DNA of 53,979 bases, from the NCBI GenBank assembly GCA_030433275.1, contig JAUILK010000024.1, positions 1 through 53,979 of the forward strand, given 5' to 3'. Made by a program: the position numbers and the translations under genes. This DNA comes from Gammaproteobacteria bacterium. Its GTDB lineage: Bacteria; Pseudomonadota; Gammaproteobacteria; Nitrococcales; Nitrococcaceae. Positions 31,718-47,066 of the stretch are shown here, piece by piece; position 1 is the stretch's first letter; every line of letters starts with the position of its first letter. The notes beneath the pieces were generated by a model. It ran no database searches and was not told the DNA's origin. It saw nothing but the letters and a program-made list of their open reading frames with translations.

Positions 31718-34423
31718 TCATTTCAAATCCAACTCTACTCGTACGAGACTTGGATCTTTGGGTACCGAACGCGACCGGAAACCAAGTGTTCCGCACAGGC
31801 GCAGCATGATCGTGTTCTGCTGTAAGACCTCACCGAAGACGAGCCGTGTTCCGCGCCGGCGGCAATAATCGATGATTCGACACATGAGCAGGCGACCTAG
31901 TCCCAGCCCTGTCAGATCGTGGCGAACGATGATGGCATATTCCGCCTGCTCGTTGTCCGGGTCGGTGGCGATACGAACCACCCCATAGATCTCGGTCTGA
32001 CCGGCGATGCCTGGCTTGGTTAGAATGAGTGCCATTTCCCGATCGTAGTCGATCTGGGTGAACCGGGCGGCCATCATGTGCGAGAGAACCTTCATCGGTG
32101 CCAGGAAGCGCAGCCGGATTTCCTCGGGGGTGAGTTTGGCAAACCCCGCCTGCAGTGCCGGCTCATCCTCGGGCCGGATGGCGCGTAGCAATAGCTTGCG
32201 GCCGTCGTCGAGCGGTATGACCTCCTCAAGCTCTTTCGGATACGGGCGGATGGCAAGGCGATCCGGGTTGATTGCGTCGCCGCTGCGCACCCGAGCACGG
32301 GCATCGAGCGCCACTACCCCATACTCGTCCGCCAGGAGCGGGTTAATATCCAGTTCGGCGATCTCCGGGATGTCGGCTACCAACTGTGCGACCTGAATGA
32401 GCGTCAAAGCGATGGCGTCCAGGTTCGCCGGTGGGCGGCTTCGAACGCCTCGCAGTTGCCGATGGATGCGTGTGCGGGAGATGATCTCGTGGGCGAGTTT
32501 CATATTGAGCGGCGGCAGTCCCAGCGCTTGGTCCTTGACGATCTCCACGGCTGTGCCACCGTGACCGAATAGCACCACGGGGCCGAACTGAGGATCATCG
32601 GTCATGCCGACGATGAGTTCGTAGGCGCCGGGGCGACGCACCATCGGTTGGACACTGAACCCTTGGATGTGAGCTTCGGGCGTGACCTGCCGCACCCGCT
32701 GCAGCATTGCCTCCGCCGAGCGGTGTACGGCTACGGGTCCGGCCAGTTCCAGGTCCACGCCGCCCACGTCGGACTTGTGCGTGATATCGGATGAGAGGAC
32801 TTTCAGCGCCACCGGACCGCCGATTTGCGCTGCCAGGGCGGCGGCTTCCTCGGGCGAGTGGGCAATGTGAGTGGTGATCACTGGGACCCCGTAAGCGGCG
32901 AGCACCTCCTTCGCCTCCGGCTCGGTGAGCCAACCGCGCGAATGGGTGAGCGCCTCCGAGATCGCGCGCCGCGCGCTAGCCACGTCGGGGACGAAGTCCA
33001 CCGGTACCGACGGCGGGGTTTCCAGCAACGTTTCCTGATTGCGGCGGTAATTGACCATATGCATGAAGGCGCGGACAGCTGCTTCCGGCGTCGTGTAGCT
33101 GGGAATGTGGTGCTCGGCGAACAACGCTCGGGCCTTTTCGGCCGTCGATTGGCCCACCCAGCTCGTCAGCAGGAATGGGCGCTGCGCACGGTCTTTGCGG
33201 TGGCTGAACTGCTCGGCACTGTCGATCACAGCCCGCGCGGCCTCCCGACTGTCGGCGATTGCCGTGGGGCAATTCAGGACCAGTACTGCATCCACTTCCG
33301 GGGCGTCCGCGAGGACGCTGAGGGTGTCCGTGTAGCGTTCGGCGGGAGCGTCCCCGATGATGTCCACGGGGTTATCTCGTGGCCAGGTGGCTGGTAGGAC
33401 CTTATCGAGCTTGCCGACAGTCTTTTTGCTGAGCGCGGCAAGTGTGCCTCCCTCGTCAATGAATGCATCGGTTGCCAGGACACCGATGCCGCCGCCATTG
33501 GTGAGAATAGCAAGCCGCTCGCCACGGGGCAGTTCACTCATCGCCAGTGTTTCGACCGCTGCGAACAGCTCGCCGAGTCTGAATACTCGAAGCATGCCGG
33601 CCCGCCGAAATGCGGCGTCGTAGACACTGTCTGCACCGGCCAGCGCCCCGGTGTGAGAGGCCGCGGCGCGTGCGCCCTCGACGTGGCGCCCGGCCTTGAC
33701 GACGATCACCGGCTTCATACGTGCAGCCGCTCGCGCGGCGGACATGAATTTGCGCGCCTGAGTGATCGCTTCGACATAGAGTAGGATCGCGTGAGTGTCG
33801 GGCTCGTTCGCAAGGTAGTCCAGCATGTCGCCGAAATCGACATCGGCCATATCGCCCAAGGAAACCAGGTGGGAGAAGCCGATGCCACGGCTCTTGGCCC
33901 AATCGAGCACGGCGGTAACTATGGCGCCCGACTGTGTAACGAAGGCCAGCCGACCGAATTCCGGGCTCAGATGCGCGAAGCTTGCATTGAGCCCCGCCTT
34001 CGGTACCAAAATCCCCAAACAGTTCGGTCCAATAAGGCGCATGAGGTGCGGCCTGGCCGCATCGAGCATCGCCTGGCGGCGAGCGATGCCCAATTTATCG
34101 GCACCTTCGCCGAACCCGGCCGTTACGACCACAGCGGCTTTCGTGCCGCGCTCGGCCAGCTGGCCGATGAGCTCGGGAACGGTGTCCGGCGGGGTGCTCA
34201 GCACGGCGAGCTCGGGACTTATTGGTAGGCTGTCGACGTCCGGATAGGCGAGCACGCCCTCGATAGCCCGATACTTTGGGTTGACCGGCATGACCGGCCC
34301 CTCGAACCCGGATTTGAATAAGTTGCGCGCGAGGACCGCGCCAACGGAGTTGGGCACTCGACTGGCACCGATAAGGGCCACCGATTCGGGTCGAAACAGG
34401 TGGTGTAGATTCCGAATGCTCAT
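31718..34423 (-). CDS. NDP-forming acyl-CoA ligase fused to GNAT acetyltransferase (Pat/AcsA-like)
   Basis: A 901-residue fusion. Order: CoA-binding Rossmann domain (SVALIGASRVPNSVG), succinyl-CoA-synthetase-like flavodoxin domains, ATP-grasp (about 480-700) and a C-terminal GNAT domain (about 740-895) with acetyl-CoA loop RHDLTGLGLGRLLM. This is the architecture of the protein acetyltransferase Pat/PatZ. Here the motif SHTGALAG keeps the histidine that is phosphorylated in true ADP-forming ligases, so it may have both activities. Start ATG 34423 has GGAG upstream. It is divergent from hsp20, with an Anr/FNR-type box in the shared spacer. Confidence 0.88.
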   Translation of the reverse strand: MSIRNLHHLFRPESVALIGASRVPNSVGAVLARNLFKSGFEGPVMPVNPKYRAIEGVLAYPDVDSLPISPELAVLSTPPDTVPELIGQLAERGTKAAVVVTAGFGEGADKLGIARRQAMLDAARPHLMRLIGPNCLGILVPKAGLNASFAHLSPEFGRLAFVTQSGAIVTAVLDWAKSRGIGFSHLVSLGDMADVDFGDMLDYLANEPDTHAILLYVEAITQARKFMSAARAAARMKPVIVVKAGRHVEGARAAASHTGALAGADSVYDAAFRRAGMLRVFRLGELFAAVETLAMSELPRGERLAILTNGGGIGVLATDAFIDEGGTLAALSKKTVGKLDKVLPATWPRDNPVDIIGDAPAERYTDTLSVLADAPEVDAVLVLNCPTAIADSREAARAVIDSAEQFSHRKDRAQRPFLLTSWVGQSTAEKARALFAEHHIPSYTTPEAAVRAFMHMVNYRRNQETLLETPPSVPVDFVPDVASARRAISEALTHSRGWLTEPEAKEVLAAYGVPVITTHIAHSPEEAAALAAQIGGPVALKVLSSDITHKSDVGGVDLELAGPVAVHRSAEAMLQRVRQVTPEAHIQGFSVQPMVRRPGAYELIVGMTDDPQFGPVVLFGHGGTAVEIVKDQALGLPPLNMKLAHEIISRTRIHRQLRGVRSRPPANLDAIALTLIQVAQLVADIPEIAELDINPLLADEYGVVALDARARVRSGDAINPDRLAIRPYPKELEEVIPLDDGRKLLLRAIRPEDEPALQAGFAKLTPEEIRLRFLAPMKVLSHMMAARFTQIDYDREMALILTKPGIAGQTEIYGVVRIATDPDNEQAEYAIIVRHDLTGLGLGRLLMCRIIDYCRRRGTRLVFGEVLQQNTIMLRLCGTLGFRSRSVPKDPSLVRVELDLK

Positions 34424-34587
34424 CGGCCGTCTCCGTTCGAGTTGCGCTTGTCGATAGTGCCCTGTAATGGGACGAAAAGCCGGTAGCATGCACAGCTGCT
34501 GCGCCGCTTGCCTGGATCGAGTAGCCGCCGCGCTTAACGCAATAAGAACATAATGATTAGAGGCCGTTTTTAGAAAACGACTCCATG

Positions 34588-34601
34588 TTGATTTATGTCA
34601 A
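34588..34601. promoter_or_regulatory. Anr/FNR box upstream of hsp20
   Basis: TTGATTTATGTCAA matches the Anr/FNR consensus TTGATnnnn(A/G)TCAA. It lies 137 bases before the Hsp20 start and 165 bases from the divergent acyl-CoA ligase start. A possible -10 TAATAT is at 34631-34636, giving a promoter start near 34643. The window encodes an FNR-like regulator at 51865-52671. Confidence 0.65.
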
Positions 34602-34737
34602 TGCGATTCGGGGTGAGTGATTTAAACTTGTAATATGGTTGGTAAAGTCGGTGAAAAGCCGCGGATTATACGGCCTCTCAACTGCGTCATGTAATGACTG
34701 CCGACCTATTTGAGCTTGAATATCAGGAGTGAATGCC

Positions 34738-35238
34738 ATGGCCGAGCAGAACGTCAGGGAAATCACCCCAACTGCGAAAGAAGTCCAGGCGGCCTCGCGG
34801 GCTTTGAGTCCGTTCGAGGAGTTTGATCGGATGTTTGCAGAGTTTTTCAGTCGGGGCTGGATGCGGCCGTTGAGCTGGGAGCGTCCGCTGTGGGACCGTC
34901 TCGCCCTGATCGAGCCGCGCATGCCCAAGGTCGACGTCGTCGACCGGGATAAGGAGGTGTTGGTGCGCGCCGAAATCCCCGGTGTCGATCGCAAGGACCT
35001 GGATATTTCGGTAACCGACAATACGGTGACGATCAAGGGACAGAGTTCTAGCGAGACCAAGGAAGAAAAGGGCGATTACTATCGCTGCGAAATCGCCCGC
35101 GGCGCATTCGCACGGACCGTGTCGCTGCCCAGCGAAGTCGATGCCGACCAGGCCGAGGCCAGCTTCAGCGAGGGCATTCTTGAGCTGACCCTTCCGAAGA
35201 TCAAAGAAGCCCGCCGGCGTAAGGTCGAGGTGAAGTAG
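34738..35238 (+). CDS. Hsp20/alpha-crystallin small heat shock protein
   Basis: A 166-residue ATP-independent holdase. The alpha-crystallin domain covers about residues 65-165 with MPKVDVVDRDKEVLVRAEIPGV, DNTVTIKGQSSSETKEEKGD and the A-x-x-x-n-G-I/V-L-x-L/I type motif FSEGILELTLPK near the end. The N-terminal arm includes SPFEEFDRMFAEFFSRGW. ATG 34738 follows AGGAG; a GTG overlapping that site at 34729 was rejected. The upstream Anr/FNR box suggests induction at low oxygen, as for many proteins of this class in gammaproteobacteria. Confidence 0.92.
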   Translation: MAEQNVREITPTAKEVQAASRALSPFEEFDRMFAEFFSRGWMRPLSWERPLWDRLALIEPRMPKVDVVDRDKEVLVRAEIPGVDRKDLDISVTDNTVTIKGQSSSETKEEKGDYYRCEIARGAFARTVSLPSEVDADQAEASFSEGILELTLPKIKEARRRKVEVK

Positions 35239-35318: not shown

Positions 35319-36338
35319 CTACAGCACGTAGTTATGTGCCAGCGCGAGGTATTCGGTAGACCGGTTCATCCACTTGTCGCGGTTGCGTTCGGGGTCTCGG
35401 GCCAGGTGCCAGACGGCTAGCTTTGCCCAGAGCATGGCGCGGCAGGCCATGAAAAAGCAGTATAACCTCTCCGATGACTCATCCCGGCTGGATTCGGCGT
35501 AGCAACGGAGTAGACGCTTTCTCACCCAATTCGCCCCGCAACGATCGCACTCCATGGCAAGCAAGCTGATCTCGTCGATTGCGTCCAGTGTTCTCAGGCC
35601 AGGGTTGAACTCTAGACAGTCGATGACTACGGGTTCCGGGGCGAAGTAGACGTGCTCGGGACGGAGATCGCCGTGCCCTTCGACAATCCGGCCGGCACCC
35701 ACGCGTTCCCGCAATGTGTGTTCCAAATCGTACGCGATGCCGTGGAGAGCTGTGGCAATTCGTTTTATCAGATTACGGTCGAGGCGGTAGCGGCGCTCGG
35801 CCAGGGTATTGGTGTCTTCGCGGATTCGCCGGTGCAGGTCTTCGACATATAAGGACGGGTCCGGCGACAGGCCGGGCAGTTTCTCGTGGAACCGGGCAAG
35901 GGTGGTGGCCAGTGAATCGATCGCCTCGGGGGGCAACCTGCGCTGCTGTAGGAGCCAGTCGAAATTTTGCGTTTCCGCCAAGCGACGCATTCGCACGACA
36001 TACTCCACGGAGCTGCCAGGACCATCCAGCGTCAGCGCGCCACACCCATCCTGCATCACGCTACTCACGCCCAGATATATGTTGGGAGCCAGGCGGCGGT
36101 TCAGCCTGACTTCGGCCTGGCATTGCCCATACCGCGTCTCGACGGTGGAGTAGTCGAGATAGCTGTAGTGCAGCGCCTTCTTGAGCTTGATCACCTGATA
36201 CGCCGATAGGAGAAGCCAGGATAAGTGCGTTTCCATGATTTCGATAGGCGCTGCGCTCTCCTGGCTCAGAGTGCTCTGCAATGCATCGATCATCCGGCGT
36301 TGGCGTTCGAGCTGCGCTTGCAAGAAAGTTGATGGCAT
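35319..36338 (-). CDS. COG2187-type aminoglycoside-phosphotransferase-like protein
   Basis: A 339-residue protein kinase-like-fold protein of the COG2187 type. Typical is the block HLSWLLLSAYQVIKLKKALH followed by DYSTVETRY and EVRLNRRLAPNIYLGV. The catalytic loop is EGHGDLRPEHVYF and the metal-binding aspartate is in VVIDCLEFN. Many relatives carry a C-terminal P-loop kinase domain; that domain is absent here, so it is the short form. The substrate is unknown and there is no reason to infer antibiotic resistance. It is convergent with hsp20. Confidence 0.8.
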   Translation of the reverse strand: MPSTFLQAQLERQRRMIDALQSTLSQESAAPIEIMETHLSWLLLSAYQVIKLKKALHYSYLDYSTVETRYGQCQAEVRLNRRLAPNIYLGVSSVMQDGCGALTLDGPGSSVEYVVRMRRLAETQNFDWLLQQRRLPPEAIDSLATTLARFHEKLPGLSPDPSLYVEDLHRRIREDTNTLAERRYRLDRNLIKRIATALHGIAYDLEHTLRERVGAGRIVEGHGDLRPEHVYFAPEPVVIDCLEFNPGLRTLDAIDEISLLAMECDRCGANWVRKRLLRCYAESSRDESSERLYCFFMACRAMLWAKLAVWHLARDPERNRDKWMNRSTEYLALAHNYVL

Positions 36339-36598
36339 ATCCTGCGCTATTCCTCCCTCGCGCGGGTCGACGTGAACCTCATGTCAGCAGCGAATTCCCA
36401 CGCCAAATCGTGTGATAGCCTGACTCGATGGATGCGGCTGCCGCCTAGTAAAGCCCGGTGTGCTTCATGATTTTTTGCTCGCTGATCGCGCATCTATTAA
36501 GCAAGATCGACTTGTACCCGGCTTGCTGCATCCTAAGCTAAAGAATAGAGTCTCCCATGGCTACACCACACCACCTCGAGCGATCGGAAGGGGAGTGA

Positions 36599-37735
36599 AT
36601 GGGCAAAACCAGCGATGCGGCCCTCATAACCCGGGTTGGAGTGCAGCGGCTCATCGAGGTGCTTACCGCCCGCGGTTACCAAGTGATCGGTCCAACCGTT
36701 CGTAATGGCGCGATCGGCTATGATGCGATCGCCGGCATCGGCGATTTCCCGGTGGGTTGGACCGACGAACAGGATGGCGGGCACTACCGCCTTCGGCGGC
36801 GCGACGATGCGGCGTTTTTCGGCTATGCGGTTGGGCCGCATTCCTGGAAGCGCTATCTGCATCCGCCCCGATTGCGACTCTGGCGGGCGCAACGCAGCGG
36901 CGATGAGATGCGGATTATCGATGAAGACGATGAGCCGCCACGCTATGCATTCATTGGTGTACGGGCATGCGAACTCAATGCCATTGCCATCCAGGACAAA
37001 GTCTTTCTCGGTGGTCCCTATGTGGATCCGCACTATCGGTCCCGTCGAGAGGCTATCTTCACCGTGGCCGTGAACTGTGCCGTGGCGGGAGGGACCTGTT
37101 TTTGCGCGTCCATGGGAACCGGGCCGAAGGTGGAAGCCGGTTTCGATCTGGCCCTTACTGAGATCGTTCATGACGGCGAACACCGTTTCCTCGTCGAGCC
37201 AGGGACGGACTTCGGCGCGCAGGTGCTCGCCGAGCTACCCTATCGGCCGGCACCGCCGGCCGATATCGATACGGCACGGGCCATCGTGGAGCGCACCGCG
37301 CAGAGTATGGGACGCGAGATGCCGGCTACCGACGTCCCCGCTTTACTGCGGCGCAACCTGGAACACTCACGCTGGGACGATGTGGCCGAGCGTTGCCTCA
37401 CTTGCGGCAACTGCACCATGGTTTGCCCGACCTGCTTCTGCACGAGTGTGGAAGACGAGACGGATCTCAGCGGTACGATGGCCACGCGCACGCGGCGCTG
37501 GGATTCCTGCTTTACGATGGATTTCTCTTATATTCACGGCGGCAGTGTTAGAAGTTCCACCCGAGCGCGTTATCGCCAGTGGATGACCCACAAGCTGTCC
37601 ACGTGGGTCGAGCAATTCGGGACCTCGGGCTGCGTGGGTTGCGGCCGCTGCATCAGCTGGTGTCCGGTCGGAATCGATATCACCGAGGAGGTCCGGGTGC
37701 TTCACGAGGACGAGTGTGACGGAGACGACTCGTGA
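36599..37735 (+). CDS. NiFe hydrogenase (group 3b type) beta subunit, 4Fe-4S dicluster protein
   Basis: A 378-residue electron-transfer subunit like HydB/HyhB of the soluble sulfhydrogenase. Two ferredoxin-like clusters are seen near the C-terminus: [16 protein letters not shown] (from Cys266) and [17 protein letters not shown] (from Cys345). The preceding 200 residues match the HydB domain ([20 protein letters not shown]). It should pass electrons between the small-subunit clusters and the flavin subunit. ATG 36599 is preceded by AGGGGAG. It is the first gene of the hydrogenase operon and overlaps the next gene by four bases. Confidence 0.9.
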
Positions 37736-38193
37736 AAGGGATCGAGCAGATTGTCCAGGAGCATCCGTTTTTCCAGGGGCTGGATGAAGCCTTTTGTGAT
37801 TTGGTCTGCACCTGCGCGCGCAATGTGCGCTTCGACAGCGGCGAGTATCTTTTCCAAGAGGGTGGTGTGGCCGACACGCTCTATCTCATCCGCCATGGCC
37901 ATGTCGCGCTCGAAATCGCCGTTCCCGGCCGTCCCGCCGTGCGGTTTCAGACACTGGGTGACGATGAACTGGTGGGCATTTCCTGGCTGGTGCCGCCCTA
38001 TCGCTGGGCTTACGATGCCCGCGCCATAGAGTTGACTCGCGCCATCGCCATGGATGCCGGCTGTCTGCGCGGTAAGTGCGAGTCGGACCATGATCTGGGC
38101 TACGAGGTCATCAAGCGGTTGATGCCGATACTGATTGGGCGTTTGCAGGCTACCCGTATGCAGATTCTCGATGTCTACGGCGCTCCGGAGTAA
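37732..38193 (+). CDS. Cyclic-nucleotide-binding-domain protein in hydrogenase operon
   Basis: A 153-residue protein consisting of one Crp-type cNMP-binding beta-barrel (residues about 8-115; ARNVRFDSGEYLFQEGGVADTLYLIRHGHV) and a helical tail. There is no helix-turn-helix domain, so it is not a transcription factor of the Crp type. The phosphate-binding cassette is poorly conserved, so nucleotide binding is uncertain. GTG 37732 overlaps the beta-subunit stop (GTGA), meaning coupled translation. Similar proteins occur at this place in bacterial group 3b hydrogenase operons, where their role is not defined; redox or allosteric control is my inference. Confidence 0.8.
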   Translation: MKGIEQIVQEHPFFQGLDEAFCDLVCTCARNVRFDSGEYLFQEGGVADTLYLIRHGHVALEIAVPGRPAVRFQTLGDDELVGISWLVPPYRWAYDARAIELTRAIAMDAGCLRGKCESDHDLGYEVIKRLMPILIGRLQATRMQILDVYGAPE

Positions 38194-38197
38194 CCTC

Positions 38198-39037
38198 ATG
38201 CGCTTGTCGATGCCGTCCGATCCCATGCGGCCGGCCCCGACGCGGGTGCTTACCCGGCGCCGGGAGGTTGCCGACACATGGACCTTGGAGCTGGAGCCCG
38301 GAGGCACAGCGGAGCGTCCGTTCGCTCCCGGTCAGTTCAATATGCTCTATGTTTTCGGTGTGGGCGAGATTCCGATCAGTCTGAGCGGGGATCCCGCCAG
38401 TCCCCACCGGCAGGTGCACACCGTGCGGGCGGTGGGGCCGGTATCACGGGCGCTGGCGGCGCTCGGACCGGACGCTGCCGTTGGCGTGCGCGGGCCGTTC
38501 GGCCAGGGCTGGCCGGTGGAGGCGGCGGCCGGCGCCGATGTCGTGCTGATCGCCGGCGGGCTGGGTCTCGCGCCTTTGCGCCCCGCGCTGTATTACATTC
38601 TGAGCCGGCGCGCCCGCTATGGGCGCGTGGTGCTGCTCTATGGCGCGCGCAGCCCCGGCGACATCCTGTTCCGTCGCGAGCTGGAGCGCTGGCGGCGCCG
38701 CACGGATCTGGAGGTCCGGGTTACGGTGGACCACGCGGGCAGCGACTGGCTCGGCCGCGTGGGTGTGGCTACTAACCTGGTTCCCTTGGCGTCGTTCGAC
38801 CCCGGGGATACGGTCGCCTTTGTGTGCGGCCCGGAAGTGATGATGCGCTTCGCCGTGGCGGCGTTACGGGAGGCCGGCGTCGACACCGCTGCCATCTATT
38901 TGTCGATGGAGCGCAACATGAAATGCGCTATCGGTCATTGTGGACATTGTCAATTCGGGCCGACTTTCGTCTGTAAAGACGGACCGGTCCTGTCCTTCGA
39001 GCGCATTCGCGGATTGCTCAGCCGCAAGGAGATTTGA
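38198..39037 (+). CDS. Hydrogenase FAD/NAD(P)-binding gamma subunit
   Basis: A 279-residue flavoprotein of the HydG/HyhG type. FAD-binding residues include [10 protein letters not shown]; the NAD(P) motif is [14 protein letters not shown]; the C-terminal 2Fe-2S site is [13 protein letters not shown] with a fourth cysteine in FVCKDGP. It is homologous to dihydroorotate dehydrogenase electron-transfer subunit PyrK. In group 3b enzymes it exchanges electrons with NADP(H). ATG 38198 follows GGAG of the previous gene's end. The small-subunit gene begins two bases after the stop. Confidence 0.9.
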
Positions 39038-39038
39038 T

Positions 39039-39821
39039 ATGGCCCGCCGCCGGCGCAAGCCGCGCCTCGCCGTTTGGAAATTCGCCTCGTGCGATGGCTG
39101 TCAGCTGAGTCTGCTTGACTGCGAGGACGAACTGCTGGCGGTGGCCGATGCCTTGGAGATTGCCTATTTTCCGGAGGCGAGCCGCGGCGAGATTCGGGGC
39201 ACCTACGATCTCTCGCTAGTGGAAGGATCCATTACCACCGCCCATGATGCTGCGCGCATTCAGGATGTTCGCCGGCGCTCGTGCAGGCTAGTCACCATCG
39301 GGGCTTGCGCCACCGCTGGCGGCATCCAAGCACTGCGCAACTTTGCGGACGTGGAAGCGTTTATCTCCGTAGTTTATGCGAACCGTGCGTATATCCAGAC
39401 GCTGGCGACCTCCACGCCCATCGCCGATCATGTCGGTGTGGATTTCGAGTTGCAGGGTTGCCCTATCAACAAACGCCAGCTGCTGGAGGTGATCACGGCC
39501 TTTTTGAGCGGCCGGCGCCCGACCATACCGAGCCACAGCGTCTGTATCGAGTGCAAGCTCAAAGGCAACGTCTGCATCATGGTGGCTCACGGCACTCCCT
39601 GTCTCGGCCCGGTGACCCACGCCGGCTGCGGTGCGCTGTGCCCGTCGTATAACCGCGGTTGCTACGGTTGCTACGGGCCTATGGAGACGCCGAATACGCG
39701 GGCACTGAGCGAGTGGTTACAGAGTCTCGGAATGACGCCCGGCGACCTTCTGCGCGTATACCGGAAATTTTACGCCAACGCCGCGGCGTTTCGTACCGAG
39801 AGTAAACGGCATGACCCATAA
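39039..39821 (+). CDS. NiFe hydrogenase small (delta) subunit
   Basis: A 260-residue small subunit carrying iron-sulphur clusters. Proximal-cluster ligands are Cys18 and Cys21 ([11 protein letters not shown]), with IGACATAGG and QGCPINKRQ. The C-terminal half is cysteine-rich ([37 protein letters not shown]), matching distal clusters of group 3 hydrogenases. There is no twin-arginine signal, so the enzyme is cytoplasmic. AAGGAG lies upstream of the ATG. It overlaps the large-subunit gene by 11 bases. Confidence 0.92.
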
Positions 39822-41100
39822 GACCATCAAGGTGAACTACCTTGCCCGGGTCGAGGGCGAGGGCGCGCTGCGCGTCACGGTGCGCGATGGTGTGGTCCGC
39901 GCTGCCGAATTGCGCATCTTCGAGCCGCCCCGTTTTTTCGAGGCGCTGTTGCGCGGTCGAGCGTTTGCCGAGGCACCGGATATCACCGCCCGCATTTGTG
40001 GGATCTGCCCGGTGGCCTATCAGATGAGTGCGGTGCATGCCATGGAGAACGCGCTGGACGTGCACGTCGACGGCCCGCTGCGCGCGCTTCGCCGGTTGCT
40101 CTACTGCGGTGAATGGATCGAAAGCCACGCCTTGCATATCTATCTGCTCCACGCACCGGATTTTCTGGGCTATGCCGGAGCCATCGATATGGCTCGGGAT
40201 CATCCCGAGACGGTGCGTCGCGGTCTGGCCTTAAAAAAGGTGGGCAATGCGGTGCTGTCGCTGCTGGGCGGTCGAGAGGTCCATCCCATCAACGTCCGCG
40301 TGGGGGGCTTCTATCGTACGCCGACTCCCCAGGAACTCGCTCCCCTCGCCGAGAATCTCCGGCGTGCACGGGAAGCAGCGTTGGAGACGGTTCGCTGGAC
40401 CGCCGGTTTCGATTTCCCCGACTGCAATCGCGATTACGAGTTAGTCGCGCTGCGCCATCCGCAGGAATACCCCTTCAACGAGGGGCGTATCGTCTCCAAC
40501 CGAGGGTTGGATATCTCGGTCGCCGAGTACAATCGGCACTTCGTCGAGGAGCACATTGCGCATTCCACGGCGCTGCACTCGCGGCTGCGGGAGCGCAACC
40601 GTTATCTGGTCGGGCCGTTGGCGCGCTACAGCCTCAACCATGACCGCCTCTCGCCCCTGGCCCGGGAAGCCGCGGCCGAGGCCGGGCTGGGGCCGAGTTG
40701 CACTAATCCGTTCCAGAGCATCATCGTGCGCAGCGTCGAGGTGCTGTATGCCTGTGACGAGGCGTTGCGCATCATCGAGCACTATCAAGAGCCCGAGCGG
40801 GCGGCTGTCGAGCTGAGACCGTGCGCCGGTGTGGGTTACAGTGCTACCGAGGCCCCCCGCGGCCTGCTCTTCCATCGCTACCGCCTGAACGGCGATGGCA
40901 CCATTGCAGAAGCGCAGATTGTGCCCCCTACGGCGCAGAACCAACCCAGCATCGAGGAGGATTTGAAGACCTTCATCGGTGATTGGCTCGAACTGCCCGA
41001 TGCGGCGCTGCGGGAGCGCTGCGAGCAGACTGTGCGCAACTATGACCCATGCATCTCATGTGCGACGCATTTTTTGAACTTGGAGATCGACCGTGCTTGA
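39811..41100 (+). CDS. NiFe hydrogenase large (alpha) subunit
   Basis: A 429-residue catalytic subunit. The L1 motif [10 protein letters not shown] (Cys63, Cys66) and the L2 motif DPCISCATH (Cys414, Cys417, His420) provide the four nickel-iron cysteine ligands. The nine residues after His420 are the C-terminal extension normally removed after nickel insertion, and a protease gene follows at once. Subunit makeup, lack of a signal peptide and gene order point to group 3b, the bidirectional NADP-linked enzyme type. Some members also reduce polysulfide. Whether it evolves or consumes H2 here cannot be told. Confidence 0.93.
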
Positions 41101-41554
41101 CCCCATGCCTTGTCGGCGCATTATCGGTCTAGGCAACCGGGGTCGGGGGGACGATGCGGTCGGGCGAATGGTCGCCGCCGGTTTGCGGGGACGGGTGCCG
41201 GAGGGTGTCCATGTAATCGAGCATGACGGCGAGAGCGCCGGTCTACTGGAGTATTTGTACGGCGCTGATGCGGTCTATCTGGTGGACGCCGCCGTCTCCG
41301 GCGCCGCACCGGGAACGATTCGGCGCTTTGATGTTCTGGAGGAAATGCTGCCAGCGCTGCCTGGGAGTGCCTCGACGCATGCACTTGGCTTGGCCGAGGC
41401 GGTTGAGTTGGCGCGTGCGCTGGGTCAGTTGCCGGCGCGTTGTTTTGTCTATGTCGTGGAGGCGGGTTCCTTCGAGGTGGGGGCGAGGCTTTCCCCAGCC
41501 GTCGCTACGGCTGTCGATACCCTGACGGCGCGAATTCTCGAGGATATCCGGTAG
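41093..41554 (+). CDS. Hydrogenase maturation protease
   Basis: A 153-residue HycI/HyaD-type endopeptidase that trims the large-subunit tail after nickel insertion. Motifs are [15 protein letters not shown] with the metal-binding acidic residue, VYLVDAA and [13 protein letters not shown] with the metal-binding histidine. GTG 41093 overlaps the large-subunit stop by eight bases; ATG 41105 is an alternative. Its position directly after the large-subunit gene fits a dedicated enzyme. Confidence 0.9.
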
Positions 41555-41680: not shown

Positions 41681-41755
41681 ATGGATAGAGGCTGTCACCC
41701 GTTCAGGAGCGGGCATTGGAACGAAGGCAGGGCTTTAATTGGCGATCGTTTCTGA
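41681..41755 (+). CDS. Possible 24-codon small ORF before hypF
   Basis: ATG 41681 is preceded by GAGGAGGTGGAGG, one of the strongest ribosome-binding sites in the window, and opens a 24-residue frame that ends at 41755, just before the likely hypF start. It contains an 18-base stretch (41717-41734) repeated exactly at 50646-50663. It could be a coupling leader for hypF or a by-product of an inserted repeat. No homologue is recognised. Confidence 0.35.
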   Translation: MDRGCHPFRSGHWNEGRALIGDRF

Positions 41756-41789
41756 ACAGCAGCACGGCGCAGCCGGGTCCGGAAGCTCT

Positions 41790-44123
41790 ATGCCAGGTGA
41801 GGCGGTCCGCGTGCGCGGCCTGGTGCAGGGTGTAGGTTTCCGCCCGACGGTTTGGCGGTTGGCCACCGAGTGCGCTCTGGACGGCGAGGTCTGGAACGAT
41901 GCCGAGGGGGTGGCTATCCGCATCTGGGGCGATTGGGCGGCTCGCCGGCGCTTTTTGTCCCGGCTGTGCAGCGAGGTGCCGCCGCTCGCGCGCATCGACG
42001 CCGTGGCTACCGAGCCGCTGGGTGGGGCGCCGCCGCGCTCGGGCTTCCATATCGTTGCCAGCCGCAGCGGGGCGGTGCATACGGGTGTGGTGCCGGATGC
42101 GGCCACCTGTAGCGCCTGTTGTGCTGATATCGCCGATTCCGGCAATCGGCGATATCGCTATCCTTTCACCAACTGCACTCATTGCGGGCCGCGCCTGAGT
42201 ATCGTGCGTGGCATCCCCTACGACCGCGCGCACACCAGCATGGCGGAATTTGCCATGTGTTCGCGCTGTCGAGCCGAGTATGCGGATCCAGGCGACCGTC
42301 GCTTCCACGCCCAGCCCAATGCCTGCCCGCAGTGCGGCCCGCAGCTGTGGCTGGAACGCGCCGGCGGTGCGGCGTTTGCGGCCGATGATGCCATCGCTGC
42401 GGCGCGCCGCTTATTGGTGCAGGGGCGCATCGTCGCCGTCAAGGGGCTCGGTGGCTTCCATTTGGCCGTAGATGCGGGTAACGCGGCGGCGGTCGTCCGC
42501 TTGCGCCAGCGCAAGCGGCGTTATCACAAGCCGTTTGCACTGATGGCGCGCGAGACCGGGGTCATCCGCCGCTATTGCGCCGTGAGCGGCGCGGAGCAAG
42601 CTCTGTTGGAGAGCCCTGCCGCGCCTATCGTCCTTTTGGAGGCAAGCGGTCCGGAATCCGTTTCCGCCGCAGTGGCGCCGGGCCAACGCACGCTGGGTTT
42701 CATGCTGCCCTACACCCCCTTACATCATTTGTTGCTGCAAGGGCTGAATCAGCCGATCGTGCTCACCAGCGGCAATCTCTCCGATGCACCGCAATGCACC
42801 GACAACGACGAGGCGCGCACCCGGTTGGCCGATTTGGCCGACTATCTGCTTCTGCATGATCGAGCCATCGTCAATCGTGTCGACGATTCGCTCGCCCGGG
42901 TAGTGGACGGCACGCCGCAGCTGCTGCGCCGCGCGCGCGGTTACGCGCCGGTTCCGCTAACCTTGCCGGAGGGATTCGGCCGGGCCGCGCTGCTGCTGGC
43001 GATGGGGGGCGAACTCAAGAACACTTTTTGTCTGGTTCGGGACGGTGCGGCCATTCTCTCCCAGCACGTGGGTGATCTGGAGGACGCTGCTACTCAGGCC
43101 GACTATCGCCGGAACCTGACGCGTTACCGAGCGCTCTTCAGGCACCGCCCCGAGCGGATTGTCGTCGACTGTCATCCGGAGTATTTATCGACCAAGCTGG
43201 GACAGGCGCATGCCGAGCGCGAAGGTTTGCCGGTGCTGGCGGTGCAGCACCACCACGCCCATATTGCAGCCTGTTTAGCCGACAACGAGGTGCCCCTGGA
43301 GAGTGCGCCGGTGCTTGGTGTCGCCCTGGACGGTTTGGGTTACGGTGATGACGGCACGCTCTGGGGCGGGGAGGTGCTGCTCGCTGATTACCGGAGCTAC
43401 GTCCGCCTCGCGCGTCTTATGCAGGTGCCACTGCTCGGCGGCGCACAGGCCGTCCGCGAGCCCTGGCGCGGTGCCTACGCCCATATTCGCGCGGCGCTCG
43501 GCTGGCGGCGCTTCGCCCGTCAATACGGCCGTCTCGAACTCTGCGCCTGGCTGCGCGATCGCCCGCTGGCCACCTTGGAGGCCATGCTCGACAAGGGCTT
43601 GAACTGTCCATTAACCAGTTCTTGTGGGCGGTTATTCGATGCTGTGGCCGCCGTGCTCGGGATCTGTCGGGCGCGCGCCGGCTACGAAGGCCAGGCGGCG
43701 GTCGAGTTGGAAGCATGCGTCACGCAAGCGGCTCTGGAGACGGCAGGTGAGGGCTATCCGTTCGATTTGATCGCAGTCGATGGGTTGTACGTGCTCGACT
43801 GCACTCCCCTGTGGCCCGCGCTGCTGGATGATCTGATGCGCGGCGTTACACCGGCGCTTGTCGCGACACGCTTTCATCTCGGGCTCGCCCGCGCTTTGGT
43901 GGGTTTGGTGATTCGGCTTGGCGAGCGACCTGACGTGCGCCCGGGTGGTTCGGTGGCGTTGTCGGGGGGGGTGTTTCAGAATCGTTTGTTGTTTGAGACG
44001 GTAGCCGAGGGTCTGCGCGAAGGCGGGGTGTCCGTGCTTAGCCATCGCCGCGTACCCGTCAACGACGGGGGGCTCTCGCTGGGGCAAGCGGTGGTGGGTG
44101 CAGCCATCGGCCACGCCTTGTGA
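41790..44123 (+). CDS. hypF: Carbamoyltransferase HypF
   Basis: A 777-residue enzyme that makes the cyanide ligand precursor (thiocarbamate on HypE) from carbamoyl phosphate. Order: acylphosphatase domain (VRVRGLVQGVGFRPTVWR), two zinc fingers (CSACC..CTHCG and CSRCR..CPQCG), YrdC-like domain (VKGLGGFHLAVDA, KRRYHKPFALM) and a Kae1-like domain (AVQHHHAHIAACLAD, VALSGGVFQNRLL). ATG 41790 gives the usual family N-terminus; TTG 41739 is possible. It follows a short gap after the protease gene and starts the hyp series. Confidence 0.92.
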   Translation: MPGEAVRVRGLVQGVGFRPTVWRLATECALDGEVWNDAEGVAIRIWGDWAARRRFLSRLCSEVPPLARIDAVATEPLGGAPPRSGFHIVASRSGAVHTGVVPDAATCSACCADIADSGNRRYRYPFTNCTHCGPRLSIVRGIPYDRAHTSMAEFAMCSRCRAEYADPGDRRFHAQPNACPQCGPQLWLERAGGAAFAADDAIAAARRLLVQGRIVAVKGLGGFHLAVDAGNAAAVVRLRQRKRRYHKPFALMARETGVIRRYCAVSGAEQALLESPAAPIVLLEASGPESVSAAVAPGQRTLGFMLPYTPLHHLLLQGLNQPIVLTSGNLSDAPQCTDNDEARTRLADLADYLLLHDRAIVNRVDDSLARVVDGTPQLLRRARGYAPVPLTLPEGFGRAALLLAMGGELKNTFCLVRDGAAILSQHVGDLEDAATQADYRRNLTRYRALFRHRPERIVVDCHPEYLSTKLGQAHAEREGLPVLAVQHHHAHIAACLADNEVPLESAPVLGVALDGLGYGDDGTLWGGEVLLADYRSYVRLARLMQVPLLGGAQAVREPWRGAYAHIRAALGWRRFARQYGRLELCAWLRDRPLATLEAMLDKGLNCPLTSSCGRLFDAVAAVLGICRARAGYEGQAAVELEACVTQAALETAGEGYPFDLIAVDGLYVLDCTPLWPALLDDLMRGVTPALVATRFHLGLARALVGLVIRLGERPDVRPGGSVALSGGVFQNRLLFETVAEGLREGGVSVLSHRRVPVNDGGLSLGQAVVGAAIGHAL

Positions 44124-44469: not shown

Positions 44470-45642
44470 ATGAAATACGTCGACGAATTTCGCGATCCGG
44501 ACAAAGCCCGGGCGCTGCTGCAGGCGATCGAGGGGCTGGTTGCTGACATCGAAATCTGTCGCCGCCGGCCTCTTCAGATCATGGAAGTCTGCGGCGGCCA
44601 CACTCACTCGATCTTCAGGTACGGCCTGGAGGCCCTGCTTCCGGAGGCGATCGAGTTCGTGCATGGCCCTGGTTGTCCGGTCTGTGTCCTGCCGATGGGA
44701 CGGGTGGACGATAGCCTTGTTCTGGCCGAGCATCCGGGGGTGATCTTCACCACCTTCGGCGATGCCATGCGCGTGCCCGGCTCGAAGAAAAGCCTGCTGC
44801 AGGCCAAGGCCGAGGGCGCTGACGTGCGCATGGTCTACTCGCCGCTGGATGCGCTCGGGATCGCCAAGGCCAATCCCGGCAAAGAGGTAGTGTTCTTTGC
44901 ACTCGGTTTCGAGACCACCATGCCCAGCACTGCCATGACCGTACTGCAGGCCGAGCGCGAGCGGGTCGCGAATTTCTCGGTATTTTGCAACCACATCACC
45001 ATTATTCCTACGATAAAGGCGATCCTGGATTCCCCGGAGCTCACCCTGGACGGCTTTCTCGGCCCCGGCCATGTGAGCATGGTGATCGGCACCGCCCCCT
45101 ACCGGTTCATCTGCCGCCACTACCGCAAGCCCCTGGTGGTGGCCGGCTTTGAGCCGCTCGATATCCTGCAGTCGATCTGGATGCTCCTGCGGCAGCTTGT
45201 CGAGGGTCGTTGCGAGGTGGAAAATCAGTATCGTAGGGTGGTAGCCGATGCCGGCAACGACCCGGCATTGCGCGCGGTGCAGGAGGTATTCGAACTGCGC
45301 GAGTTTTTCGAATGGCGCGGGTTGGGTTCCATCGATCACTCCGGCGTGCGTATCCGCGATGCCTACGCGGCATTCGATGCCGAGCGCCGGTTCTCGGTGC
45401 CCAACCTCGAGATCGCGGATCCCAACTCCTGCCAGTGCGGCGAGGTGCTCAAGGGGATGATCAAGCCTCGACAGTGCAAGGTTTTCGGCCGCGCCTGCAC
45501 TCCGGAGACGCCGCTTGGGGCGTTGATGGTCTCCTCCGAGGGCGCCTGTGCCGCGTATTATAATTACGCCGGCGTGCAACTCGGCAAGGTGGGAGGGCAG
45601 CGTTCGGAGCCCGCCAGGGGGCGGGCGAGGGATAGGTCATGA
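44470..45642 (+). CDS. hypD: Hydrogenase formation protein HypD
   Basis: A 390-residue scaffold for assembly of the Fe(CN)2CO group with HypC and HypE. Seen are IMEVCGGHTHSIFRYGLEALLP with the essential cysteine, EFVHGPGCPVCVLP, EVVFFALGFETTMP, GFLGPGHVSMVIG, and the C-terminal 4Fe-4S ligands in SCQCGEVLKG, QCKVFGRACTPETPLGALMVS. Length is somewhat above the usual ~375 because of a basic tail. It overlaps hypE by four bases. Confidence 0.95.
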   Translation: MKYVDEFRDPDKARALLQAIEGLVADIEICRRRPLQIMEVCGGHTHSIFRYGLEALLPEAIEFVHGPGCPVCVLPMGRVDDSLVLAEHPGVIFTTFGDAMRVPGSKKSLLQAKAEGADVRMVYSPLDALGIAKANPGKEVVFFALGFETTMPSTAMTVLQAERERVANFSVFCNHITIIPTIKAILDSPELTLDGFLGPGHVSMVIGTAPYRFICRHYRKPLVVAGFEPLDILQSIWMLLRQLVEGRCEVENQYRRVVADAGNDPALRAVQEVFELREFFEWRGLGSIDHSGVRIRDAYAAFDAERRFSVPNLEIADPNSCQCGEVLKGMIKPRQCKVFGRACTPETPLGALMVSSEGACAAYYNYAGVQLGKVGGQRSEPARGRARDRS

Positions 45643-46733: not shown

Positions 46734-47066
46734 GTGCATGAGCTCGCCCTCACTCGGAACCTCATCGAAGTCTGCAGCCAACAGGCGCAGGGCGCGCGTA
46801 TCCTGCGCGTCACCGTGGAGCTCGGGGCGTTGACCTGCGTGATGCCCGAGGCGCTGCGCTTTTGCTTCGAGGCGTGTCGCGTAGGGACTGCGCTGGCGGA
46901 GGCCGAGTTGGAGGTTATCATGATGCCGGGCCGGGCACGCTGCCGCGACTGCGGCGCGGAAGTCGAGCTCGACGAGCTGCTGGCCGACTGCGAGTGCGGC
47001 TCGGTGAACCTAACAGAGTGGCGCGGCGGCGACGCTCTGAGAATTCGTTCTATGGAGGTGGCGTAA
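46734..47066 (+). CDS. hypA: Nickel metallochaperone HypA
   Basis: A 110-residue nickel chaperone acting with HypB. The GTG start at 46734 produces [10 protein letters not shown]; His2 and Glu3 are needed for nickel binding, which confirms the start. The zinc site has Cys70-x2-Cys73 and, instead of the usual second CxxC, Cys86-x-Cys88 (DCECGS). The altered spacing is odd and may change zinc affinity. The stop TAA overlaps the hypB ATG. Confidence 0.92.

Follow-up and report, generated by a model that had tools for sequence, protein, structure and literature searches.

The window, meaning the whole stretch of 53,979 nt that was analyzed, carries a [NiFe] hydrogenase operon in which a gene for a small PF00027 protein, here called CNB, stands between the genes of two enzyme subunits. 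The features of the locus are as follows, with the basis of each assignment in parentheses.

36599..37735, + strand: HydB, iron-sulfur (4Fe-4S dicluster) beta subunit (Fer4_22; P. furiosus SHI beta, 9nez_B)
37732..38193, + strand: CNB gene, GTG start, 153-aa PF00027 protein (ORF list, Pfam, AlphaFold2, structure search)
37813..37815, + strand: codon of CNB Cys28
37975..38025, + strand: rewritten ligand cassette of CNB, residues 82-98 (GISWLVPPYRWAYDARA in the window; GxSWLxPPYxW...ARA in most close members)
38062..38079, + strand: codons of CNB Cys111 to Cys116
38140..38181, + strand: conserved end of the CNB C-helix, residues 137-150, RLxxTRxQLLDxYG (HydA-selected rows)
38198..39037, + strand: HydG, FAD/NAD(P)-binding gamma subunit (Pfam, NCBIfam)
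39039..39821, + strand: HydD, small hydrogenase subunit (Pfam, NCBIfam)
39811..41100, + strand: HydA, large [NiFe] subunit (Pfam, NCBIfam, structure match; RICGIC and DPCISC in the translation)
41093..41554, + strand: hydrogenase maturation protease (Pfam, NCBIfam)
41739..44123, + strand: HypF maturation protein (Pfam, NCBIfam)

The CNB gene begins within the last 4 bp of hydB, and the ATG chosen as the start of hydG, at 38198, lies 4 bp past its stop codon. Past hypF come HypD at 44470, an AIR-synthase-type protein at 45639, which from its position would be HypE, and a CobW/HypB-type protein at 46862. An opposite-strand ORF of 201 aa (37702..38307) overlaps CNB and is regarded as a shadow ORF such as GC-rich DNA produces. 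Three lines of evidence indicate that CNB itself is a real gene and not a chance reading frame. Between the window, which comes from a genome of Nitrococcus type, and Nitrococcus mobilis Nb-231 (locus L030), which holds a CNB gene at 93% identity, CNB has a dN/dS of 0.105, a value like those of the hydrogenase subunits (HydB 0.129, HydG 0.214, HydD 0.080, HydA 0.103). HydB lies directly upstream on the same strand in 79 of the 80 loci retained as best among 422 relatives in a CNB-selected scan, and 54 of the 62 assessable loci selected by HydA carry CNB. The earlier note had described a conserved neighbor that overlaps the beta-subunit gene, precedes the flavin-subunit gene and is co-encoded with the enzyme, and all of this holds: HydG is directly downstream in 78 of the same best 80.

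As an observation on the wider region, an FNR/ANR-like site, TTGATTTATGTCAA, with one mismatch to the consensus, occurs at 34588-34601 between a divergent acyl-CoA ligase/GNAT gene (31718-34489, - strand) and an HSP20 gene (34729-35238, + strand). With up to two mismatches to this consensus, the whole window holds 27 such sites where 11 are expected; none falls upstream of hydB, from 36330 to 36600.

Large subunits of [NiFe] hydrogenases carry an L1 motif of the form RxCGxC and an L2 motif of the form DPCxxC, and the window HydA has both (RICGIC and DPCISC). The best NCBIfam kin of the enzyme are sulfhydrogenase subunits. HydA scored 284.8 bits against ShyA, for which the equivalog cut-off is 700, so it is kin and not the archaeal equivalog. 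Scores of the window HydB for the HydB/ShyB families were likewise below the family cut-offs, and HydG hit the cytochrome-c3 hydrogenase gamma subfamily first, then HydG and ShyC. Among solved structures, the group 3b sulfhydrogenase I of Pyrococcus furiosus (PDB 9nez, 9nf0) matched HydB through chain 9nez_B (E 4e-40) and HydA through 9nez_D, and HydG and HydD matched SHI/SHII subunit models. With HydB, HydG, HydD and HydA co-encoded as in group 3b [NiFe] hydrogenases, the window enzyme is predicted to be group 3b-type and NADP-linked. The P. furiosus enzyme is described as a heterotetramer (PMC8346489), and no 9nez or 9nf0 chain was among the 60 matches listed for CNB or the CNB profile.

The CNB-selected set came from a genome scan with the pattern A-x-R-x-x-x-L-D-x-Y and is limited to the 80 top-ranking of its 422 relatives. 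Within it, the HydB-CNB gap runs from -20 to 308 nt, with overlap in 42 loci; CNB overlaps hydB or lies within 18 nt of it in 74 of 79, with starts chosen by script. The gap to HydG is -38 to 133 nt. Two loci deviate: neither HydB nor HydG was found in L066, and in L070 the contig ends after CNB. These 80 loci span about a dozen phyla, named partly from the groups in record titles: Pseudomonadota, Acidobacteriota, Chloroflexota, Nitrospirota, Nitrospinota and Armatimonadota, with further carriers in Planctomycetota, Binatia, Ignavibacteriales, Bacteroidota, Sumerlaeota and a Calothrix. Plasmids of Rhodococcus, Burkholderia, Paraburkholderia and Pandoraea also carry CNB, and two scans of a viral collection confirmed no relative. 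Genetically tractable carriers include Azotobacter vinelandii (L056) and a laboratory strain of Paraburkholderia (L044). On the Pandoraea vervacti plasmid, hydA (L004, 8083-9356) matches in two pieces with no listed CDS in an incomplete listing, and it may be broken.

Since CNB itself was the bait, that set is biased, and the census made with HydA as bait is the better guide to how often the enzyme has the gene. We searched 299 Pseudomonadota, 201 Chloroflexota-type, 149 Planctomycetota-type and 198 Bacteroidota-type genomes, the last three groups being the phyla of loci with such titles, at E limits of 1e-60 and then 1e-100. Loci with HydA identity of at least 49% were taken as group 3b-type, giving 9, 25, 17 and 14 in the four groups, and three cut by a contig end (L134, L157, L174) were left out. 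CNB was present in 3 of 8 Pseudomonadota, 21 of 23 Chloroflexota-type, 16 of 17 Planctomycetota-type and all 14 Bacteroidota-type loci. In these counts L169 was recognized by profile, L172 and L204 stand as carriers, and L176 was scored as a carrier on a CNB fragment at the border of the sequence taken, in which its HydB was not seen. The eight assessable loci without CNB are L132, L133, L136, L137, L138, L158, L161 and L190; no family member was found elsewhere in those eight genomes, where the best stray match had E 3.5e-5 and 32% identity over part of the domain. CNB was also absent from all 12 loci fetched of the 18 Pseudomonadota loci with HydA at 35-39% identity. Together these loci indicate that the enzyme class can work without CNB.

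Two gene orders occur, B-C-G-D-A and C-B-G-D-A, the latter in 13 loci (nine Chloroflexota, four Planctomycetota). CNB adjoins hydB in both, which makes this adjacency the constant feature, with a 936-nt gap between the two in L182. The association is also kept where the operon is split. In Calothrix, hydB-CNB-hydG lie together (L103, 6505-9405) and hydD-hydA are on another contig (L206, 7099-9163); in genome G448, CNB, a HydB-HydG fusion and HydD are together (L204) with HydA on another contig (L172). Such fusions, single ORFs of about 650-680 aa with CNB upstream, were seen in some Chloroflexota (L165, L167, L168, L169, L173, L204). In the Planctomycetota-type locus L176 (2795-6101), about 3.3 kb separates hydA and hydD.

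CNB has been inherited with the hydrogenase. On a quick, simple-model HydA tree of 143 of the 159 loci (HydA of at least 300 aa), its presence and absence require 3 changes against a shuffled mean of 18.1, and none of 500 shuffles was as low. This pattern is compatible with one gain and two losses.

Across 102 loci, mean identity is 0.51 for CNB, 0.55 for HydB, 0.54 for HydG and 0.37 for the protease. Partial distance correlations of CNB, a measure that shared operon transfer alone can raise, were highest with HydG (0.38, bootstrap 0.21-0.51), followed by HydA (0.26, 0.09-0.39), and close to nil with HydD (0.03), the protease (0.03) and HydB (0.00). The correlation with HydG exceeded that with HydB in all 500 bootstraps and that with HydA in 83%, and it was repeated in two subsets (0.42 and 0.43). 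As to the side on which CNB may dock, adjacency thus favors HydB and rate covariation favors HydG, both of which are within the NAD(P)H-side module.

Two other approaches to the docking site were rejected. Positions at least 95% conserved with CNB and changed without it numbered 0, 3, 1 and 0 in HydB, HydG, HydD and HydA, and the CNB-less controls for this comparison included L169, a mislabeled CNB carrier. Residue covariation between CNB and the subunits gave between-protein scores no better than background, from 102 rows with an effective number of 53.

These data bear on the reading of CNB as a chaperone that serves HydB or HydG during assembly or maturation and is absent from the mature enzyme. 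In its favor, CNB is co-encoded with the iron-sulfur subunit it adjoins, and protease and hyp genes do follow in the same run. However, the gene stands within the structural block and apart from the maturation genes. CNB is also conserved far better than the protease, and it covaries with HydG and not with the protease. We consider a chaperone role unlikely.

In a Pfam scan, PF00027 cNMP_binding (residues 32-118; 38 bits against a cut-off of 27.5) was the single domain of CNB, and nothing DNA-binding was found. AlphaFold2, given an alignment of 78 sequences including the window CNB (81 close sequences minus the near-duplicates L029, L039 and L060), predicted a CRP beta-roll followed by a C-helix at residues 120-150 (mean pLDDT 89.5, pTM 0.83). 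The beta-roll and C-helix are common to CNB and the CRP/FNR regulators (CRP, GlxR, FNR), whereas those regulators continue into a C-terminal helix-turn-helix. In the model CNB ends three residues beyond the C-helix, which leaves no room for one, so the earlier note was right that the helix-turn-helix is missing. The best solved match to the model was 3mdp, by Foldseek (E 2.9e-12, TM 0.78/0.89) and by VIA-align (Z 19.4, rmsd 1.9 over 132). Chains of cAMP-bound CRP and of GlxR gave VIA-align Z of about 16-18, and FNR matches too. The cyclic nucleotide-binding insert of family 2B encapsulins (NF041163) matched CNB weakly as a profile (E 3.9e-5, 22.9 bits, residues 8-122), far under the family cut-off of 400 bits, and this is a likeness at the superfamily level only.

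In CRP-type domains, a Glu and an Arg of the phosphate-binding cassette (E72 and R82 in CRP numbering) bind the ribose and phosphate of the ligand. CNB is predicted to have the beta-roll of canonical cNMP-binding domains but lacks both residues: in the ungapped part of a HMMER alignment, the GlxR cassette Glu and Arg fall on CNB Ile83 and Trp92. Among 81 relatives, position 83 is Trp in 35, Ala in 22, Val in 15, Leu in 4, Ile in 3, and Thr and Phe in one each, and never Glu; position 92 is Trp in 72, Ala in 4, Ser and Thr in 2 each and Phe in 1, and never Arg. The HydA-selected set agrees at position 83 (Trp in 43 of 47, Glu in none) and has Trp at position 92 in 26 of 47, with Arg in 2. In the C-B-order clade, mainly the G, W and S of GxSWLxPPYxW remain.

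Could CNB nevertheless be a subunit that genuinely senses cyclic nucleotides and relays a cAMP or cGMP signal to the enzyme? The PF00027 score above cut-off and the likeness of the predicted fold to cAMP-bound CRP and GlxR are what such a sensor would show, and Arg91, present in 51 of the 81 close relatives and one residue before the canonical Arg, could in principle replace it. A ligand Glu that is never kept and an Arg that is almost never kept, in a cassette replaced by an aromatic, proline-rich motif, make ordinary cAMP or cGMP sensing improbable, and from the alignments we infer that neither is the ligand. Our guess is that the pocket is filled by tryptophans. Given Arg91 and the two sequences with Arg92, a nucleotide phosphate site is still conceivable. 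The earlier note suggested that a nucleotide or redox signal is linked to H2 turnover; this is weakened where the signal would be a cyclic nucleotide.

A different signal might come from cysteines. Cys28 and Cys111 are present in 81 of 81 members of the closest clade and Cys116 in 72 of 81, so CNB could be imagined as a redox or metal sensor in which these residues form a disulfide, metal or iron-sulfur site that serves as an oxygen or redox switch of the hydrogenase. At least one of the three is absent from more remote relatives that also belong to hydrogenase operons (L007, L118, L122 and the C-B clade), Cys111 and Cys116 often being missing there, and the cysteines are thus not the core function. 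This reading is a special form of the subunit reading, with which its chances overlap; it would apply to one clade at most and has only a slight chance of being right.

The other conserved element is the end of the C-helix. Because the genome scan behind the 81 sequences used a single pattern, conservation of residues 140-149 among them is partly built in, and our statement about this segment is based on the HydA-selected rows, which that pattern does not bias. Hydrogenase-linked CNBs and orphan paralogues differ here at positions 143, 144, 145, 146 and 149.

The paralogues away from hydrogenase operons show that the family can act elsewhere. Nineteen gammaproteobacterial relatives, at 30-37% identity, lie outside the operon; 16 have no hydrogenase gene in the stretch taken, and the other three (L109, L110, L118) are 4-6 kb from hypF or hydB. 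The window genome shows one CNB copy only. Two Nitrococcus genomes hold a second paralogue, 31-33% identical, 4-5 kb from hypF (L109, 5981-6430, in G001, N. mobilis; L110, 6363-6782, in G004). The gammaproteobacterial genome G029 has six CNB matches at E 0.001 or better; one of these is in a hydrogenase operon, and 5.8 kb from it lies an orphan (L118 on G029:C72; G029:C149). Two Streptomyces plasmid copies have no hydrogenase match beside them. The one in L005 has carbonic anhydrase among its neighbors and the one in L008 has universal stress, CBS and GAF-kinase genes, surroundings resembling a hypoxia or dormancy island. Pfam analysis of ten neighbors of five orphans found no common partner.

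Orphans retain GWSWL, R137, L138 and R142 and depart from the hydrogenase-linked CNBs at positions 65, 67, 68, 74, 143, 144 and 149, which are candidate contact positions. To the idea that CNB is a free regulator, merely co-transcribed and acting elsewhere in the cell, as the orphans of gammaproteobacteria and of the Streptomyces stress-gene islands might suggest, we give very little weight, since the orphans diverge at just these positions, well conserved in the hydrogenase-linked group, and the hydrogenase-linked CNB tracks the enzyme across phyla and split operons.

The closest working precedent is one that the earlier note did not name. In the Cupriavidus NAD-hydrogenase, HoxI is described as a dimer that sits on the diaphorase module and provides the site of activation by NADPH (PMC3702609, PMC3189943). 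Like CNB, HoxI of Cupriavidus necator (Ralstonia eutropha; 167 aa, L002:14836-15339) is a small cyclic-nucleotide-type domain with no helix-turn-helix, is encoded with an NAD(P)-linked soluble [NiFe] hydrogenase, here the group 3d NAD-reducing enzyme, and lacks the canonical Arg, which is His in HoxI. It differs from CNB in retaining the Gly-Glu-Leu of the ligand cassette and in being encoded downstream of the protease, whereas the CNB gene stands among those for structural subunits. The partner enzyme of HoxI, too, is different, with the complex I-like HoxFU in place of HydBG. The two proteins share only 24% identity, over 58 aa. Specific kinship or descent is not supported: on the CNB family profile HoxI scored 34.6 bits, below GlxR (54.6), PKG (70.6) and 3mdp (70.6), which have no hydrogenase link, and recruitment of CNB and HoxI thus looks independent. 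A 2025 paper gives the name HoxI to the CNB gene of a methanotroph group 3b cluster (PMC12319191), an orthology that our profile test does not support.

Group 3b hydrogenases have been reported in nitrifiers, methanotrophs and mycobacteria, and the accounts we consulted describe them by the archaeal four-subunit model. For Nitrospina, four subunits and accessory proteins are given (PMC3578206). The P. furiosus enzyme is called the only characterized type 3b in one account (PMC6688271), and another also counts the M. smegmatis enzyme (PMC13332983). The latter source lists a cyclic nucleotide-binding protein in a Rhodococcus equi 3b cluster and assigns it no role in the passage concerned. Our literature search, with most subscription journals outside its scope, found no functional study of the CNB family, in line with the statement in the earlier note that its function is not established.

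Taken as a whole, the evidence argues that one bacterial subclass of group 3b [NiFe] hydrogenases probably has CNB as a constitutive accessory subunit. Its place inside the soluble hydrogenase operon in many bacteria is what suggests an overlooked accessory subunit, and a structural or allosteric role within the complex, put forward in the earlier note, is made plausible by the co-encoding, the missing helix-turn-helix and the conserved neighborhood. The enzyme would then have the composition B-C-G-D-A, against B-G-D-A in archaea. CNB would probably dimerize through its C-helix, as CRP does, dock on the HydB-HydG electron-input module and there tune or stabilize electron exchange with NAD(P)H. 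By analogy its mechanism may be like that of HoxI, with no specific relation between the two proteins. The rewritten pocket suggests that CNB is either ligand-free or reads something other than cAMP or cGMP; our best guess for such a ligand, again from the HoxI analogy, would be NADP(H).

If CNB is a fifth subunit, enzyme expressed or purified without it may be misregulated or unstable, and the ligand of CNB would tell when these bacteria switch between making and using H2. More tentatively, and this may well not hold, bacterial group 3b hydrogenases could, a few lineages apart, mostly be five-subunit enzymes whose fifth subunit is a CRP-fold protein with a plugged or re-specified pocket, and the CRP fold would have been recruited at least twice, in CNB and in HoxI, for the regulation of NAD(P)H-linked hydrogenases by direct contact and not via transcription.
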